NCBI GenBank assembly: GCA_025351005.1 | Contig: JANXWS010000070.1 | Coordinates: 1-62,541 of the forward strand | DNA: 62,541 bases | Direction: 5' to 3' | From: Pseudomonadota bacterium | GTDB taxonomy: Bacteria > Pseudomonadota > Gammaproteobacteria > Steroidobacterales > Steroidobacteraceae | Part shown: positions 34,063 through 48,742 of the stretch, in pieces | Layout: each line of letters starts with the position of its first letter | How positions within the stretch are numbered: the stretch's first letter is position 1 | Notes under the pieces: generated by a model | The model's database searches: none | What the model was told of the DNA's origin: nothing | The model's input: only the letters and a program-made list of their open reading frames with translations | Position numbers and translations under genes: made by a program

Positions 34063-37000
34063 ATGACTCCTCGCACGCCGTTCGCGTGCCTCGCCGCGTT
34101 GGGCGCGGCCCTCCTTGCATGGGTCCCGCCGGGCGCACGCGGGGCGCCGACCGGCGCGGAACCGCTGCCGGCGGTCGAGTGGCGCCTGGCCGGGCCGTTC
34201 CGTGGCGGCTGGAGCACGATGGCCGTCGGTGTGCCCGGACTTCCGGATACATATTATGCGGGCACCGCCGGCGGCGGAGTCTGGAAGACCACGGACTCAG
34301 GCCGCAGCTGGCGGCCCGTCGGCGACGGGGCGCCGATCACGGCGGTCGGCGCGCTCGCGGTCGCGCCATCCGATCCGGGCGTCGTCTACGTCGGCACCGG
34401 GCAGGCCGACCCGCGCTACGACATCGGCGGCGGCAGCGGCGTCTACCGCTCGCGCGATGGCGGTGCCAGCTGGGAGTCGGCGGGGCTGCTGGACAGCCGT
34501 CACATCGGCGCGCTGCTCGTCGACCGACGCGACGCGAACCTGGTCCTGGTCGCCGCGCTTGGCCACGTGTTCGGGCCCGGCGGCGAGCGCGGCGTCTACC
34601 GCAGTACCGACGGCGGCGGCAGCTGGACCCGCACGCTCTACGTGGACGAGCAGACCGGTGCCGTCGACCTCGCCGTCGACCCCGTCGACCCGGACGTCGT
34701 ATACGCCTCGACCTGGACCGCGCGCGTCTGGCCGTGGCTCAGCTACTTCACGCCGATCGAAGGGCCGGGCAGTGCGATCTTCCGCTCCCAGGACGGTGGC
34801 CGCAGCTGGCAGCGACTAGGCGGCGCGGGCTGGCCCGGCGGCGACCTGGGTCGCATCGGGGTCGCGGTCACGCGCGCTGCGGGCGCGACCAGGATCTACG
34901 CCACGGTTGCCAGCGAGCACGACGGCGGGCTGTACCGTTCCGACGACGCCGGCGGACACTGGATGCGCGTCCACGACGCCGGCTGGGCAACCACCTGGTA
35001 CGTCGGCCGGCTGACGGTATCGCCGGTCGATCCCGACGACGTGTTCCTGCCTGGCCAGTCGATTCACGAGTCGAAGGACGGCGGCCGCAGCTTCACGATC
35101 GTGCGCGGCGCGCCCGGCGGCGACGACTATCATTTCCTGTGGATCAACCCGCGCGACCCGGCGCGGCGTGTCGCGTCGAGCGATCAGGGCGTGATCGTCA
35201 CCGTCAACGGCGGCCAGAGCTGGAGCGACTGGTACAATCAGCCCACCGGCCAGTTCTACCACCTCGCGACCGACCGGCGCTTTCCGTACCGGATCTACTC
35301 CGGCCAGCAGGACTCGGGCTCGGCTCGCGTCGCGAGCCGCAGCAACGACGGCGCGATCGGCGAACGCGACTGGCGGCCGGTCGGCGCCGAGGAGCGCGAC
35401 TTCGACCTGCCCGACCCGGAGGACCCGTCGATCGTGTTCGGCAGCGGACTCGGTGGACGGATCACGCGCTGGGACGAGCGCACCGGCGAGCGCGCGAACG
35501 TCTCGCCGTGGCCGCTGACGAGCTACGGCAAGCGGCCGACGGACTTTCGCTATCACTACAACTGGTTCACGCCGCTCGCGTTCTCCGCGAAGCCGCCGTT
35601 TGCGCTCTATGCGGGCGCGCAGGTCCTGTTCCGCTCGCTCGACCGCGGCGCGCACTGGGAGGCGGCGAGCCCCGACCTCAGCGGTCGGGCCGCGGGCGAG
35701 CGCGATTGCAGCGGCAGCCCGGATCCGGCGCGCGCGCTCGCGTGCGGATTCGGCGTCATCAACGCGATCGCCCCGTCGCCCCGCGACGGCGCCGAGATCT
35801 GGGTCGGGACCGACGACGGGCTAGTCTGGCTGACGCGCGACGGCGCGCGGAACTGGGCGCGGGTCACGCCGCCGGGCCTCCCGCCGTGGGCCAAGGTCAG
35901 CAGCATCGACCTGCCAAGCGGCAGCCCGGGCACCGCCTACGTCGCGGTCGACAACCACCGCCAGGACGACGTGCGGCCGTACGTCTACCGGACCGCGGAT
36001 TACGGCGCCAGCTGGACGGCGATCGGCGGCGCGCTGCCCGCAGGGCACTTCGTCAGCGTCGTGCGCGCCGATCCGCTGCGGGCCGGGCTCCTGTACGCCG
36101 GCACCGAGCTTGGCGTCCAGATCTCCTTTGACGACGGCGAGCACTGGGAGGCGCTGAACGCGAACCTGCCGCCGGTGTGGGTCCACGACCTCCTCGTCCA
36201 CGACGGCGACCTGATCGCCGCGACCAATGGCCGTGCCATCTGGGTGCTCGACGACGTGGGCCCGCTCCGCCAGCGCGCGCTGGCGGCGACCGGCGCGGCG
36301 CGTCTCTACGCGCCGTCGCCGGCCTACCGGCTGCGCGCCAATACCTACCAGGACATGCCGCCGGAGCCCGAGTCGCCGCTCGGCCGCAACCCGCCCACCG
36401 GCGCGATCATCGACTACCTGCTGCCGGACGCCGCGCGCGGGCCGGTCGAGATCGAGGTGCACGACGCCGCCGGAAGACTGGTGCGACGCTTCGCGAGCGA
36501 CGCGCCGGACGAGGACCTGCAGGTCGCGGCGTACTTCACCTCCGACTGGCTGCAGCGCCCGGCGCGGCCGTCGGCGGCCGCGGGTCCGCACCGCTTCGTG
36601 TGGGACCTGCGTTATGCGCGACCGCGCGCGATCCGTTACGAGTACAGCATCTCGGCCTCGTACGCCGAGGGGGCGCCGCTGGTCCCGGGTGGGCCGCTGG
36701 CGTTGCCGGGCGAGTACCGCGTGACGCTGGTCGTCGACGGCCGGCGCCTCGATGCGCCGCTCACGATACTCGCCGACCCACGCCTCGATGTGACGCCGGA
36801 CGCGCTCGCCGCGGGCGTCCGGTTCTCGCGCACGCTCGCGCAGACGCTCGCCCGCGCGGCGCGCGGCTACGACGAGATCAGCGCGGTACGGGCCGCGCTT
36901 GCCGCGCAGCGCAAGGCGGGCGCGGCGCCCGGCGCTACGCTCGCGGCGCGGCTTGCCGCGCTCGATGCAATGCTGGCCGCGCTCGTGACCGGCGACCGCG

Positions 37001-42045: not shown

Positions 42046-42348
42046 GACCGGCCGCCGTTCGGTCCTGCCCTGCGCTAGGTCGCAGAACGACGACGCCCGC
42101 GGGCGAGCCCGCTCACGGACGTTCGGCAGTGTCGTCGATCGACCGTCCCCGCTTGAATGGGACGAACACGGAGCACTCGCGCGGATCCGCGGCGAGCGCC
42201 CGGTCCGTCCGGCCCGGGGCGCCGCGGCATCCTGTCACTCGCAACGGACGCGGGGCGAACGGCTCGCGCCTATACTCTCGCGCCGGCCTGCCACCGTTCG
42301 GCACGCCACGGTAGAGGTTCGCGAGGACTGGTCTCGGGGGGGGCGACG
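42046..42348. promoter_or_regulatory. Divergent promoter region
   Basis: Region between the minus-strand oxoacid oxidoreductase operon and the plus-strand peptidase gene. TATACT at 42271-42276 is a likely -10 box for the peptidase, giving a leader of about 65 nt that ends in a G-rich ribosome site just before 42349. Nothing else is evident. Confidence 0.4.
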
Positions 42349-44016
42349 ATGCGACTCAAGCAATTGATTTACTTGCTTATACCTCTCTCAACGTCGGTCG
42401 TCGCGGCCCCGCCCGCGCCGGCTCCAGACCCGCTGCTCGCGAGTGCCGCGCGCTTTGCGCCGGTCGAGATCCGCGCCGACGTCGCCCGGCTGCCCGACCG
42501 CGAGCGCCAGTCGCTCGCCAAGATGATCGCCGCGGCGCGGATACTCGACTCGCTGTTCCTCCGCCAGGTTTCTCCCGAGAACGGTGCACGACTGCTCGCG
42601 CTCGCCGCCGATCACACGGCGGCGGGCTGGGCGCGCCTCGATTACTTCCTGATCAACAAGGGACCCTGGTCGCGCCTCGACCGCGACGCGCCTTTCCTGG
42701 CGGGCGTCGGCGCCAAGCCGCCGCAGGCGGGGTTCTATCCGGCGGACGCGACCCGTGCCGAGGTCGACGCCTGGTTCCGCACGCTCGACCCCCCGGCACG
42801 CGAGCAGGCGACCGGCTTCTTCACGACCATCCGGCGCGACCAGAAGGGCGCGCTCGTAGCGGTTCCCTACAGCCTCGAGTACCAGGGCGAGCTGACCGTC
42901 GCCGCGCGCTACCTGCGCGAGGCGGCCTCGCTGACGGCACAGCCGACGCTGCGCACCTACCTCGAGCAGCGGGCCGACGCATTCCGGTCCGACGACTATT
43001 ACGCCAGCGACATGGCCTGGATGGATCTCGACGCGACGATCGAGCCGACGATCGGCCCGTACGAGACCTACGAGGACGGCTGGTTCAACTACAAGGCGGC
43101 GTTCGAGGCGATCATCGGCGTCGTCGATGCTGCCGAGACCGCGAAGCTCACCCACTTCAGCGCCGAGCTGCAGTACCTCGAGGACCACCTGCCGATCGAG
43201 CCGCGCCTCAGGCGCGCCAAGCTAGGTGGCTATTCGCCGATCCGGCTGATCAACGTCATCTATGCGTCCGGCGACGCCGCCCAGGGTGTCTCGCTCGCGG
43301 CCTTCAACCTGCCGAACGACGAGCGCGTGGTCACGGCCAAGGGCTCGAAGCGCGTGCTGATGAGGAATTTCCAGCAGGCGAAGTTCGACAAAGTGCTCGT
43401 GCCGATCGCGGCGATCGTGCTCGAGCCGCACGACGGCGCGCTGGTGCGCTTCGATTCGTTCTTCACGCACATGCTGATGCACGAGCTGATGCACGGCCTC
43501 GGTCCGCAGACGATCAGCGTCGCGGGTCGCAGCAGCACTGTGCGCCAGGAGCTCAAAGAGGTATCGGGGGAGCTCGAGGAGGCGAAGGCCGACATCTCCG
43601 GCCTCTGGGCGCTGCAGCAACTGGTCGACAAGGGCGTACTGTCGAAGGCCGACGAGCACAGCTACTACGTGACGTTTCTCGCCTCGATTTTCCGGACACT
43701 GCGTTTCGGTCTCAGCGACGCCCACGCGCGCGGCATGACGCTGCAGCTCAACTACCTGCTGGACGCAGGCGCGGTGAAGCTCGGCAGCGACGGCCGCTGC
43801 AGCGTCGACTTCGCCCAGGTGCGCGCGGCGGTCGAAGGCCTGACGCGCGAGATCATGACCATCCAGGCCGCCGGCGACTATCCTAAGGCGCGCGACTGGC
43901 TCGCAAGGATGCGTCCGATTCGCCCGGCGATGCAGCGCCTGATCGAACAGCTGGGAAGCGTGCCGGTCGATATCCGGCCGCAGTTCGTGACCGCCGCCAC
44001 GATCGCGCCCCGATGA
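42349..44016 (+). CDS. Secreted M49-like (dipeptidyl-peptidase III type) zinc peptidase
   Basis: A 555-residue exported protein with a signal peptide at about 1-20 (ending SVVAAPP). The zinc site is H378-E379-H382 (HELMHGLGPQ), with the third ligand and acid pair in GELEEAKAD (408-415), the arrangement of peptidase family M49. IEPTIGPYETYEDGWFNYKA (231-250) is another strongly family-like stretch. M49 enzymes with a standard site have HExxGH; here the motif is a plain HExxH, so it belongs to the variant bacterial group. The start at 42349 follows a run of G; the frame is open upstream without coding character. Confidence 0.84.
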   Translation: MRLKQLIYLLIPLSTSVVAAPPAPAPDPLLASAARFAPVEIRADVARLPDRERQSLAKMIAAARILDSLFLRQVSPENGARLLALAADHTAAGWARLDYFLINKGPWSRLDRDAPFLAGVGAKPPQAGFYPADATRAEVDAWFRTLDPPAREQATGFFTTIRRDQKGALVAVPYSLEYQGELTVAARYLREAASLTAQPTLRTYLEQRADAFRSDDYYASDMAWMDLDATIEPTIGPYETYEDGWFNYKAAFEAIIGVVDAAETAKLTHFSAELQYLEDHLPIEPRLRRAKLGGYSPIRLINVIYASGDAAQGVSLAAFNLPNDERVVTAKGSKRVLMRNFQQAKFDKVLVPIAAIVLEPHDGALVRFDSFFTHMLMHELMHGLGPQTISVAGRSSTVRQELKEVSGELEEAKADISGLWALQQLVDKGVLSKADEHSYYVTFLASIFRTLRFGLSDAHARGMTLQLNYLLDAGAVKLGSDGRCSVDFAQVRAAVEGLTREIMTIQAAGDYPKARDWLARMRPIRPAMQRLIEQLGSVPVDIRPQFVTAATIAPR

Positions 44017-44047: not shown

Positions 44048-44053
44048 TATACT
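44048..44053 (+). promoter_or_regulatory. -10 box of the rimP-nusA operon
   Basis: TATACT with TTTCCC 17 bases upstream (44025-44030), a weak -35. Transcription from it would begin near 44060, just before the leader hairpin. Confidence 0.45.
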
Positions 44054-44105
44054 CAGCGGTCAGTAGGACCAGCTCTGGCGGAGTGGTCCGTGAGTGCGTG
44101 ACGAG

Positions 44106-44124
44106 GCCCCCGTGGGGGCTTTTT
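44106..44124 (+). terminator. Leader terminator T1
   Basis: GCCCCC (44106-44111) and GGGGGC (44114-44119) close a tight hairpin followed immediately by TTTTT (44120-44124). Canonical rho-independent terminator about 60 nt into the leader. Confidence 0.75.
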
Positions 44125-44163
44125 CGTTTGGGTCGCGGGCCGGCGGGCGCGCGGACCCCGTGT

Positions 44164-44198
44164 ATGGGCCGATGGCCCATTTTTTTGGCCCATTTTTT
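44164..44198 (+). terminator. Leader terminator T2 with duplicated 3' arm
   Basis: ATGGGCC (44164-44170), loop GAT, GGCCCAT (44174-44180), followed by a T-run to 44186. Then GGCCCATTTTTT occurs again at 44187-44198. The single 5' arm TGGGCC can pair with either GGCCCA copy, each backed by its own T-tract, giving two mutually exclusive terminators 44 bases before rimP. Confidence 0.75.
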
Positions 44199-44242
44199 GG
44201 GTCGGGTGGATCGCCGGGGAGGGTCCCGGGCCGGGGCGGGCG

Positions 44243-44722
44243 ATGCGCGAGGCGCTGATACGGCTGCTGGAGCCCGAGGTGGCGGCGCAGGGCTGCGAGC
44301 TGGTCGAGCTCGAGTACCACGCGCAGCGCGGCGGCGGCCTGCTGAGGCTTTATATCGACCGTCCCGAGGCGACCGGCCCCCACGGCGGCGTTTCTGTCGA
44401 CGACTGCGAGACGGTGAGCCGGAGGGTCAGCGCGGCGCTCGACCTCGCCGACCCGATCAGGGGCGAGTACACGCTCGAGGTGTCCTCGCCGGGTTTCGAC
44501 CGGCCGCTGCGGACGCGGGCGCACTACGAGCGCTACACCGGCAGCCGGGTGCGGGTCGAAAGCCTCTCGCCCCGCGACGGCCGGCGGCGCTGGACCGGGC
44601 GCCTGGTGGCGGTCGCCGACGCGGGCCTGCGGCTCGAGGTCGACGGCCAGATCGTGGAATTGGGACTGAACGAGATCAAAACGGTGCGACTGGCGCCGGA
44701 CTACGGCACGCGGCGGGAGTGA
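44243..44722 (+). CDS. rimP: Ribosome maturation factor RimP
   Basis: A 159-residue protein needed for 30S subunit maturation. The N-terminal domain (about 1-85) shows MREALIRLLEPEVAAQGCEL, VSVDDCETVSRRV and YTLEVSSPGFDRPL, all RimP signatures; the C-terminal SH3-like domain ends with LNEIKTVRLAPDY. It is the first gene of the classic rimP-nusA-infB-rbfA-truB operon; six bases separate it from nusA. The leader upstream carries tandem terminators. Confidence 0.96.
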   Translation: MREALIRLLEPEVAAQGCELVELEYHAQRGGGLLRLYIDRPEATGPHGGVSVDDCETVSRRVSAALDLADPIRGEYTLEVSSPGFDRPLRTRAHYERYTGSRVRVESLSPRDGRRRWTGRLVAVADAGLRLEVDGQIVELGLNEIKTVRLAPDYGTRRE

Positions 44723-44728
44723 CGAGCA

Positions 44729-46246
44729 ATGGCCAGGACTACGCTTAAGGAAATCGTGGACGCCGTCGAGAGCGTCGCCAACGAGAAGGGCATCGACAAG
44801 GCGATCATCTTCGATGCGCTCGAGGCTGCGCTCGCCTCCGCGACCCGCAAGCGCCACGGCGAGGACATGGACGTTCGCGTAGCGATCAACCAGAAGAGCG
44901 GCGACTACGAGGTATTTCGCCGCTGGAAGGTATTCGCCGACGACTCGCGCGAGCTCGAGTTCCCCGAGCGCGAGCTGCGGCTCGAGGACGCGCTCGATGT
45001 CAGCCCGGATGCCGTGGTCGCCGGGTTCGTCGAGGTGCCCCTCGAGGGTGAATCCTTCGGCCGCATCGACGCGCAGACCGCCAAACAGGTCATCGTGCAG
45101 AAGGTCCGCGAGGCCGAGCGCGCGCAGGTGGTCGAGGCCTACAAGGACCGCGTCGGCACGCTGGTCAGCGGCATCGTCAAGCGCGTCGACCGCAACGGCG
45201 TGTTCGTCGACCTCGGCCAGAACGCCGAGGGCTTCGTGCCGCGCGAGAACCTGATCCCGCGCGAGCCGATCCGCACACAGGACCGCATCAAGGCCTACCT
45301 GCGCGAGGTGCGCTCGGAGCCGCGCGGACCCCAGCTGTTCCTGTCGCGCACCGCGCCTGAGTTCCTGATCGAGCTGTTCAAGCTCGAGGTGCCCGAAGTC
45401 GGGCAGGGACTCATCCTGATCCTCGGCGCCGCCCGCGACGCTGGCATCCGCGCCAAGATCGCGGTCAAGAGCCTCGATCCGCGCATCGATCCGGTCGGCG
45501 CCTGCGTCGGCATGCGCGGCAGCCGCGTGCAGGCGGTCTCGAACGAGATTGCCGGCGAGCGCGTCGACATCATCCCGTTCGAGGACAACCCGGCGCAGTT
45601 CGTCATCAACGCGATGCAGCCCGCCGAGGTCACGTCGATCGTGGTCGACGAGGACCAGCACAGCATGGACATCGCGGTTGCCGAGGAGAAGCTGTCGCAG
45701 GCCATCGGCCGCGGCGGCCAGAACATCCGGCTCGCGTCCGAGCTGACCAGCTGGAAGCTCAACATCATGAGCGAGCAGCAGGCCGACGAGAAGAGCGAGG
45801 CCGAAACGGTGCAGCTGCGTGAAATGTTCAAGAAGGCGCTCGATGTCGACGAGGACGTTGCCACGATCCTGGTGCAGGAGGGCTTCTCGACCATCGAGGA
45901 GATCGCTTACGTACCGACCAAGGAGCTGCTGGCGGTGGAGGAGTTCGACGACAACATGGTCCGCGAGCTGCGCAACCGGGCGCGCGACGTGCTGCTGACG
46001 CAGGCGATCGCCACCGAGGAGACCGCCGAGGGCGGTGCGCCGGCTGAGGACCTGCTGTCGCTCGATGGCATGGACGAGGCGCTCGCCAGGCGGCTCGCCG
46101 CGCGCGGCATCCGCACCCGCGAGGAGCTCGCCGAGCAGTCGATCGAGGATCTCGAGGGCATCGACGAGCTGGACGACGCCCGCGCCGGCCAGCTGATCAT
46201 GGCGGCCCGCGCGCACTGGTTCATCGACGGCGCCGCGACATCTTGA
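44729..46246 (+). CDS. nusA: Transcription termination/antitermination factor NusA
   Basis: A 505-residue RNA-polymerase-binding factor that promotes pausing and hairpin-dependent termination and takes part in antitermination. Domains in order: N-terminal RNAP-binding domain (1-130), S1 (about 135-200, [20 protein letters not shown]), KH1 and KH2 (about 205-345, [20 protein letters not shown] and [16 protein letters not shown]), then two helix-hairpin-helix acidic repeats (about 370-500). The two C-terminal repeats are typical of proteobacterial NusA such as the 495-residue E. coli protein. It is the natural candidate to act on the terminators in its own operon leader. Confidence 0.98.
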
Positions 46247-46258
46247 GGAGCCTGCCGC

Positions 46259-48742
46259 ATGTCTGACGTCACGGTTTCCCAGTTCGCGGACGCTCTCAAG
46301 GTCCCGGTCGACAAGCTGATGAAGCAGCTCGACGAGGCCGGCATCCGCGTCTCCGGTGCCGACGACCGCATCAGCGACGAGGCGAAGAGCGAGCTGCTCT
46401 CGCACCTGCGCCGCGCCCACGGACGCCCGAGCGAGGAGGTCGCGACGTCCGGCCCGCGCAAGATCACGCTCAAGCGCAAGACGCAGAGCGAGATCAAGGT
46501 CAGCGCCTCGCTGGGACGCGCTCGCACCGTCAGCGTCGAGGTGCGCACCAAGCGCACCTACATCAACCGCGGCGTGCTCGAGGAGCAGGCGCGCCATGCG
46601 CAGGAGGAGATCGACCGCCTGAAGGAGGTCGAGGACGCTGCGCGCCGTGCCGTCGAGGAAGAGCAGCGGCGCAAGGCGGACGAGGAGGCGCGCCGCACCG
46701 AGGACGAGAAGCGGCGCCGGTCCGAGGAGGACGCGCGCCGCGTCGCCGACGAGGACTTGCGTCGCCAGGCCGAACAGCGGGCGCGCGAGGAGGCCGACCG
46801 CTCGCGTAAAACGGCCGACAAGCCGGCCCGCATCGAGGTCGATGCCCGCGAGACCAAGAGCTACCACCGCCCGGAGCTGCACGTCTCGACGGACATGACG
46901 TCGCGCTACAAGAAGAAAAAGCCGCTGCGCGGCCGGCGCGGTGTCAGCGCGCCCGCCGACGGCCGGCATGCCTTCGAGATGCCGACGCAGCCGGTGAAAC
47001 GCGAGGTCTCGATCCCGGAGACGATCACGGTCGCCGAGCTCGCGCAGAAGATGGCTGTCAAGGGCAGCGAGCTGATCAAAACGCTGATGAACATGGGTGT
47101 CATGGCGACGATCAACCAGCCGCTCGACCAGGACACCGCGGTGCTGGTCGTCGAGGAGCTCGGCCACACCGCCAAGACCACGCGCGCCGACGCGCTCGAG
47201 GAAGGGCTGCAGACCGCCGCCGCCGGTAGCGAGGCCGCGCCGCGACCGCCCGTGGTCACGATCATGGGGCACGTCGACCACGGCAAGACGTCGCTGCTCG
47301 ACTTCATCCGCCGCGCCAAGGTGGCGGCTGGCGAGGCCGGTGGCATCACCCAGCACATCGGTGCCTATCACGTGACGACGCCGCGCGGCATCATCACGTT
47401 CATCGACACGCCGGGCCATGCGGCGTTCACCTCGATGCGCGCGCGCGGCGCGCAGGTCACCGACATCGTGGTGCTGGTCGTTGCCGCCGACGACGGCGTC
47501 ATGCCGCAGACCATCGAGGCGATCCAGCACGCGCGTGCCGCCGAGGTGCCGATCCTCGTTGCGCTCAACAAGATCGACAAGCCCGAGGCGGAACCGGACC
47601 GGGTCAAGGCCGAGCTGGTGCAGCAGGGCGTGATCCCGGAGGACTACGGCGGCGACACGATCTTCGTCCCCGTCTCGGCGCGCACCGGCGCCGGCGTCGA
47701 CCAGCTGCTCGAGGCGCTGCTGCTGCAGGCCGAGGTGCTGGAACTGACGGCGGTCGGCGACGGGCCGGCGGCCGGCGTCGTGCTCGAGTCGAGCATCGAG
47801 AAAGGCCGCGGCGCGGTCGCGACGGTGCTGGTCAAGAGCGGCACGCTCAAGTCCGGTGACCCGATCCTCGCCGGCCAGGAGTTCGGGCGGGTGCGGGCGA
47901 TGTTCGACGAGAACGGCGGCGCCGTCGAAAGCGCCGGTCCGTCGATCCCGGTGCAGGTGCTCGGCCTGTCGAACCCGCCGAACGCGGGTGACGAGTTCCT
48001 GGTGATCGAGAGCGAGCGCAAGGCGCGCGAGGTCGCGCTCTACCGGCAGGGAAAGTACCGCGACGTGAAGCTCGCGACCCGCACCACCAAGATCGAGGAC
48101 GTGTTCTCGCAGATGGAGGAGGGTCGCGTCCAGATCGTGCCGGTCGTCATCAAGGCCGACGTACAGGGCTCCGCCGAGGCGCTCAGGGAGTCGCTCACCA
48201 GGCTCTCGACCGGCGAGGTCGCGGTCAAGGTGGTCGGCTCCGGCGTCGGCGGCATCACCGAGTCCGACGTGATGCTCGCGGTTGCCTCCAAGGCACGCAT
48301 CGTCGCCTTCAACGTGCGCGCCGATGGCGCAGCCCGCGCGGCGCTCAAGGACAACGGCGTCGACATCCGCTACTACAGCATCATCTACGAGGCGATCGAC
48401 GACGTGCGCGACGCGCTGTCCGGCATGCTGGCGCCGGAGGTGCGCGACCAGATCGTCGGCCTCGCCCAGGTGCGCGAGGTGTTCCACTCGAGCAAGTTCG
48501 GCCAGGTCGCCGGCTGCCTGGTCGCCGAAGGCTACGTGCGGCGCAACAACCCGATCCGCGTGCTGCGCGACAATGTCGTGATCTTCGAAGGGGCGCTCGA
48601 GTCGCTGCGCCGCTTCAAGGATGACGTCAATGAGGTCCGCGCCGGTACCGAGTGCGGCATCGCGGTCAAGGACTACAACGACGTCCGCGCCGGCGACCAG
48701 ATCGAGTGTTTCGAGCGCGTCGTCGTGACGCGTACGCTGTGA
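46259..48742 (+). CDS. infB: Translation initiation factor IF-2
   Basis: An 827-residue GTPase that brings initiator tRNA to the 30S subunit and drives subunit joining. The N-terminal IF2_N domain (1-50, [18 protein letters not shown]) is followed by a long charged Glu/Arg-rich linker (about 95-205), a second IF2_N module near 250-290, and the G domain with GHVDHGKT (337-344), DTPGHAAFT and NKID. Domains II-IV end in RTL. It lies 12 bases after nusA and one base before rbfA, so the genes are surely cotranscribed. Length is within the normal range. Confidence 0.98.

Follow-up and report, generated by a model that had tools for sequence, protein, structure and literature searches.

What do intrinsic terminators do ahead of rimP when no tRNA gene stands in front of them? 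The terminators upstream of rimP often adjoin metY, and they could serve either of two purposes, ending the tRNA transcript or metering the operon. The locus studied here lies in a 62,541-nt stretch of DNA (the window), which is contig C39 of an assembly from an uncultured gammaproteobacterium of the Steroidobacteraceae, 2.71 Mb in size and 86% complete; in the NusA tree the window fell within a 29-row clade with Steroidobacter and Povalibacter (support, 100/96). Three genes follow one another on the plus strand: rimP (44243 to 44722; 159 aa, with the Pfam RimP_N and RimP C-terminal domains), nusA (44729 to 46246; 505 aa, an open reading frame with a relative in L032 that is 91% identical, placed by the NusA tree) and infB (46259 to 48742; 827 aa, an open reading frame named by translation and gene order alone). 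On the minus strand, a 1475-aa open frame (44060 to 48487) runs opposite rimP, nusA and the greater part of infB and is most likely a by-product of high G+C. ARAGORN found no tRNA gene in the leader, and the sole tRNA that it reported in the window was a tRNA-Leu (CAG) at 35648 to 35739.

The leader lies between the stop codon of an upstream peptidase gene (44016) and the rimP ATG (44243) and is compact, at about 180 nt, with all of its elements on the plus strand. Its first element is a -10 box, TATACT (44048 to 44053), which belongs to a TATAMT/TAGAAT pattern found at the same place in the leaders of all 15 genomes of the genus and would put the transcription start near 44060; no -35 consensus pairing with this box was found by a sigma-70 site search (0 sites). 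Next comes a 24-nt 5' hairpin, H1 (44066 to 44089), in which GGACCAGCTC and GAGTGGTCC enclose TGGCG, giving the loop UGGCG. The upstream intrinsic terminator, T1 (44103 to 44129), consists of GAGGCCCC(CGTG)GGGGCTTT followed by TTCGTTT, with a C-rich 5' arm, a G-rich 3' arm and the tail TTTTTCGTTT. A middle hairpin, GGGTC...GACCC (44130 to 44158), separates it from the downstream intrinsic terminator, T2 (44164 to 44186), which comprises ATGGGCC(GAT)GGCCCAT and a run of seven Ts (44180 to 44186) and lies 56 nt ahead of the rimP start codon. Both T1 and T2 were returned by a terminator search, and RNA ends would be expected near 44124 to 44129 and near 44186, with partial read-through of the two sites.

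Directly after T2 its 3' arm, GGCCCA, is repeated together with another T tract, GGCCCATTTTTTGGGTC (44187 to 44203). All 15 genus leaders have the repeat, though its form differs among them, and it is absent from the sister genome G034. By pairing with the T2 5' arm it could form a back-up terminator; alternatively, it could fold on itself as GGCCCA-UUUUU-UGGGTC, for which energies of -2.3 to -12.6 kcal/mol were obtained over the 15 leaders, weak in several; the U-loop fold has a compensated stem in L015 (GGTCCA...TGGACC).

Taken by itself, the window sequence was weak evidence for any of this, because exactly two terminator-like sites, T1 and T2, were found in 2.2 kb where shuffled sequences gave an expectation of 1.0 +/- 0.8. 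The folding z score was weak both for the full leader (-1.57) and for its first 69 nt (-1.44), and the H1 segment had a weak mean z of -0.74 over the genus. Within the 2.7-Mb assembly, T1 is the only place with the motif GCCCC-N3..6-GGGGCTTTT. When 150 of 1080 first-look candidates from the genome were scored for a second copy of the leader, the one match with an E value of 10 or below was the leader itself.

The decisive evidence that the predicted elements are real came from sequence comparison among genomes. RimP was present in all 15 genus genomes, and every one of the 15 leaders kept the -10 box, H1, T1 and T2, similarly spaced and in unchanged order, so that the box, the 5' hairpin and the two tandem terminators facing rimP that the sequence-only reading had picked out were all borne out; the alignment of related leaders that it had proposed found the hairpins kept. 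Identity in the genus alignment peaked at these elements (0.85 for the -10 box and for T2, 0.87 for T1, 0.90 for the H1 loop with its inner stem, 0.96 for the T1 tail and 1.0 for the T2 tail), as against 0.60 to 0.62 in the outer H1 arms and 0.30 to 0.47 in the spacers. The core stem and tail of T1, the T tail of T2 and the UGGC of the H1 loop were invariant (15/15), and the middle hairpin folded in all 15 leaders at -14.8 to -22.1 kcal/mol despite 47% identity of the segment. Compensation was concentrated in H1: four of its nine pairs were changed on both sides (shuffles, 2.1; 43/500 as high), and the 12 both-side-changed cells counted over the whole structure were all in H1 (shuffles, 3.6; 0/500 as high). 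Most T1 and T2 core pairs did not vary at all within the genus, and they therefore neither favor nor oppose alternative folds. No conserved anti-terminator was found in the genus leaders, in the sense of a pairing with compensatory support that opposes T1 or T2. A common anti-terminator was considered in the consensus fold, where the GGGTC that follows T1 pairs with the second GGCCC, downstream of T2, and was set aside because this pairing is nearly invariant and so is no evidence for one.

The sequence-only reading had named a promoter downstream of 44200 among the observations that would count against it. As far as sequence can tell, there is none: no TANNNT hexamer was present between T2 and rimP in any of the 15 genus leaders, and rimP-nusA-infB transcripts therefore seem to need read-through of both terminators, in keeping with its statement that transcription must pass the two of them.

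The tandem terminator architecture is that of a known element, whereas the metY-less variant with H1 appears to be new. The gammaproteobacterial rimP-leader, with both stem motifs in tandem and NusA as the proposed controller, was described by Naville and Gautheret (2010; PMC2965389). The leader of the window likewise lies between a predicted promoter and rimP of rimP-nusA-infB; T2 corresponds to the published GGGc...gCCC stem with its U stretch, its distance of 56 nt from the start codon falling within the published 4 to 130 nt, and T1, in all 15 genus leaders, corresponds to the second, upstream tandem terminator of the gammaproteobacterial form, which has the inverse CCCg...cGGG stem. The sequence-only reading had mentioned leader-type control of rimP as proposed in other bacteria; the match to the published architecture shows in both stem motifs. 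The published description includes a potential anti-terminator, and no clear one was found here. H1, the hairpin between the terminators and the extra T2 3' arm, which brings its own T tract, are additions to the published form. This metY-less form with those three elements was not found in the open-licence literature searched.

The Rfam search that had been recommended, including its rimP family, gave no match. RF01770, which is listed in two catalogues (PMC5955585 and PMC5471319), had no hit in the window either at the gathering score or at E values up to 10, and no Rfam family was assigned to the leader, the three matches at E values up to 10 being at chance level and none of them RF01770. 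The same model exceeded its cut-off in none of 60 genomes, that of the window included (G056 fell below it at an E value of 5.9e-4), and did so in the E. coli control. A search of 20 additional loci, all but one of which were metY-less leaders, gave a sole Rfam match, the tRNA of the metY-bearing L128.

In E. coli the order is metY-t1-t2-rimP, and the operon is regulated by the NusA that it encodes, according to PMC6511841. The present leader shares with it the two terminators upstream of rimP and differs in having no metY between promoter and T1. Further features of the E. coli leader are a P2 promoter and RNase III sites on the 3' side of metY, whereas here no TANNNT hexamer follows T2. RNase III in E. 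coli is the subject of PMC5371410, and a 3'-end study reports that an E. coli rimP 5'UTR-ORF fusion was lower in a Rho mutant (PMC7815308). For the rimP leader of Streptococcus agalactiae (gbs0413), PMC4448216 describes a proposed NusA feedback at a terminator. There an intrinsic terminator close to the start site yields a short RNA, as is predicted for the present leader; termination in S. agalactiae is 31 nt from the start.

The distribution of metY was then considered at three levels, where metY means a tRNA-Met that ARAGORN placed in the stretch of up to 600 nt ahead of rimP. In the family, RimP was found in 144 of 160 genomes and 136 leaders were examined, the eight RimP-matching genomes left out being G018, G067, G100, G115, G129, G150, G156 and G158, where several matches were fragments. 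metY was absent from 129 of these 136 leaders and present in seven, namely, three of three examined in genus g17 and four of 11 in genus g4. None of the 15 genus leaders had any tRNA within 600 nt upstream of rimP (380 nt for one of them). T1 followed by T2 was detected in 97 of the 129 metY-less leaders, compared with 0/680 dinucleotide shuffles and 0/132 stretches taken at -600 to -300; the detector used did not show the ordered pair in the remaining 32, and at least one of the two terminators was present in all 129, a single one being seen in 56/680 shuffles. Among the seven metY-bearing family leaders, the ordered pair was found within 300 nt in one and both terminators within 420 nt in six, the two counts coming from different detectors (420 nt with stricter arms and 300 nt with looser arms; T2 of G014 was counted only by the latter). 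At the order level, 14 of the 22 genomes with RimP were examined, and metY was present in four of these 14 leaders.

In the named set, metY was present in 29 of 78 leaders, and mapping its presence onto the NusA tree took 14 changes, eight or more of them on well supported branches. The ordered pair was found in 27 of 49 metY-less and 14 of 28 metY-bearing leaders, and at least one terminator in 48 of 49 and 26 of 28, respectively; the similar frequency of the ordered pair with and without metY indicates that the terminators are independent of the tRNA. The tree offered eight independent pairs, too small a number to bear on an association of terminator loss with metY loss; the ordered pair changed in the same sense as metY in 1.7 of them and in the opposite sense in 0.1, and the average number of pairs without difference was 7.0 for T1, 5.8 for T2 and 6.1 for the ordered pair. 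The NusA tree alone cannot separate gain from loss. Since metY occupies this position in E. coli, Pseudomonas and other lineages, its repeated loss from rimP leaders is likely. The metY-less lineages that keep the terminators amount to a natural deletion experiment, one that favors metering of the operon.

Away from rimP, a near full-length match to tRNA-fMet (93 to 99% identical) was found in 12 of the 15 genus genomes, one of them about 29 kb from rimP on the same contig and strand (G010:C1:659640-659715). G003 and G007 had partial matches alone and G000 had none; no initiator tRNA was found in the window's own genome, whose assembly is 86% complete.

We consider the rimP-nusA-infB leader to be probably an attenuator, the metY-less form of the gammaproteobacterial rimP-leader. 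The tandem intrinsic terminators, which no promoter-like hexamer follows, point to transcription attenuation: part of the RNA polymerases would be halted at T1 or T2 and the remainder would continue into the operon, with NusA strengthening termination and thereby lowering its own supply. NusA, whose control of the operon is reported for E. coli, is the predicted controller of this leader. NusA-dependent termination is known from B. subtilis. The stop signals would likely let the cell throttle an essential operon. The sequence-only reading had offered a regulated attenuator, or else a short RNA of about 65 nt, with NusA as the candidate controller. The attenuator with NusA agrees with PMC2965389, PMC6511841 and PMC4448216; the reading had missed the upstream peptidase gene, the middle hairpin, the U-loop hairpin and the position of H1 in the place of metY. 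H1 may act as a 5' domain that shields the leader RNA at its 5' end or stabilizes the short RNA, or that binds a factor, where a tRNA sits elsewhere. Its loop is invariant on a changing stem, which fits a predicted factor-binding site, and the leader, with its small size of about 180 nt and a single invariant hairpin, lends itself to finding out which part NusA or another operon product recognizes.

T1 and T2 might instead be ordinary gene-end terminators. The statement that none of the hairpins follows a recognizable gene did not hold, as an open reading frame for an M49-type peptidase (42157 to 44016, plus strand; Pfam PF03571, E value of 3.7e-11) stops 86 nt before T1, a distance at which T1 could also end that gene, and rimP would then be expressed by weak read-through or from an unrecognized promoter. 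This is quite unlikely, given that the conserved -10 box lies between the peptidase stop codon and T1 at the same place in all 15 leaders, that no TANNNT hexamer follows T2 and that the M49-type gene is upstream in only six of the 15 genus loci. Of the other nine, L005 has just 380 nt of upstream sequence; others have an M61 peptidase, a short-chain dehydrogenase or no Pfam match there, with T1 and T2 unchanged, and the upstream gene was rejected as the cause of the terminators since its identity varies within the genus. Alternatively, H1 and T1 could form a free-standing gene for a trans-acting sRNA of about 65 nt, with rimP transcribed by read-through and selection keeping the RNA rather than attenuation. 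The conservation of H1 with compensatory changes would suit such a gene, and PMC5391140 names the rimP leader among ProQ-associated attenuator-derived sRNAs. An RNA of that size would leave unexplained why T2, its repeated arm and the middle hairpin are conserved past T1, and the UGGC hairpin is found in few leaders beyond the genus, as detailed below, so we regard this reading as unlikely; it is in any case compatible with attenuation, not exclusive of it.

The origin of H1 is a related matter. In the genus, the stretch from the -10 box to T1 is short (44 to 50 nt as cut) and mostly H1, and this position between -10 box and T1 is that of metY in relatives. H1 could be what is left of a decayed metY, namely its D arm with the D-loop sequence CUGGCAG, persisting through inertia or serving as a tRNA mimic. 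The shared place, the resemblance of the H1 loop to a D loop (GUCUGGCAGCUC) and the metY-like 3' end (CCGCTACCA) retained in the leaders of G045, L064 and G079, outside the genus, speak for such a descent. Local alignment to tRNA-fMet was nevertheless no better than for shuffles in all 15 genus leaders (lowest p, 0.11); p was below 0.05 in nine of 113 leaders overall and 0.22 in the sister genome G034. Descent from tRNA-fMet was not supported by these alignments, and we regard a metY remnant as very unlikely. A further scenario, which is speculative though conceivable, is that a tRNA-led attenuator was rebuilt: metY disappeared repeatedly while the terminators persisted, and this genus acquired a new sensor hairpin of 24 nt, with an invariant UGGC loop, that replaced the tRNA as the regulatory 5' domain, to be read by a factor made from the operon (NusA, RimP or IF2).

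A covariance model was built from the genus leader. It scored at least 146 bits in the 11 genus genomes drawn, scores that are high by construction because the model was built from the genus, and 83 of 296 order genomes matched at E values up to 0.01. The best match outside the genus, at 50 bits, was the sister-genus genome G034, which also has a UGGCA hairpin. Other genera had different sequences in the place of H1, some of them strongly folded (mean z score of -3.3 in g13 and -2.8 in g15) and some not (about 0 in g16). H1 was rejected as a family-wide element: a UGGC hairpin was detected in six of 102 other metY-less leaders (eight of the 102 from outside the family), one of the six being G034, against 2.5% of shuffles, with a detector that found 10 of 15 in the genus itself.

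Several metY-less leaders had features of their own in this position. L064 and L228 (G045) carry an exact initiator-tRNA 3' end (TGCCCCCGCTACCA) before T1, yet no tRNA was recognized in them. Two close Pseudomonas records, L106 and L108, have no metY, keep both terminators and have other sequence in the metY place. In Povalibacter uvarum DSM 26723 (L038), a cultured relative, the leader lacks tRNA-Met and contains a T2, and no H1 was seen in it. In genus g4, five metY-less leaders (L122, L143, L150, L154 and L161) share a conserved stretch ending in GGGCATATATAAGGTGTCCGGGTA shortly ahead of T1, and four genomes under the same genus code keep metY where this stretch is found.
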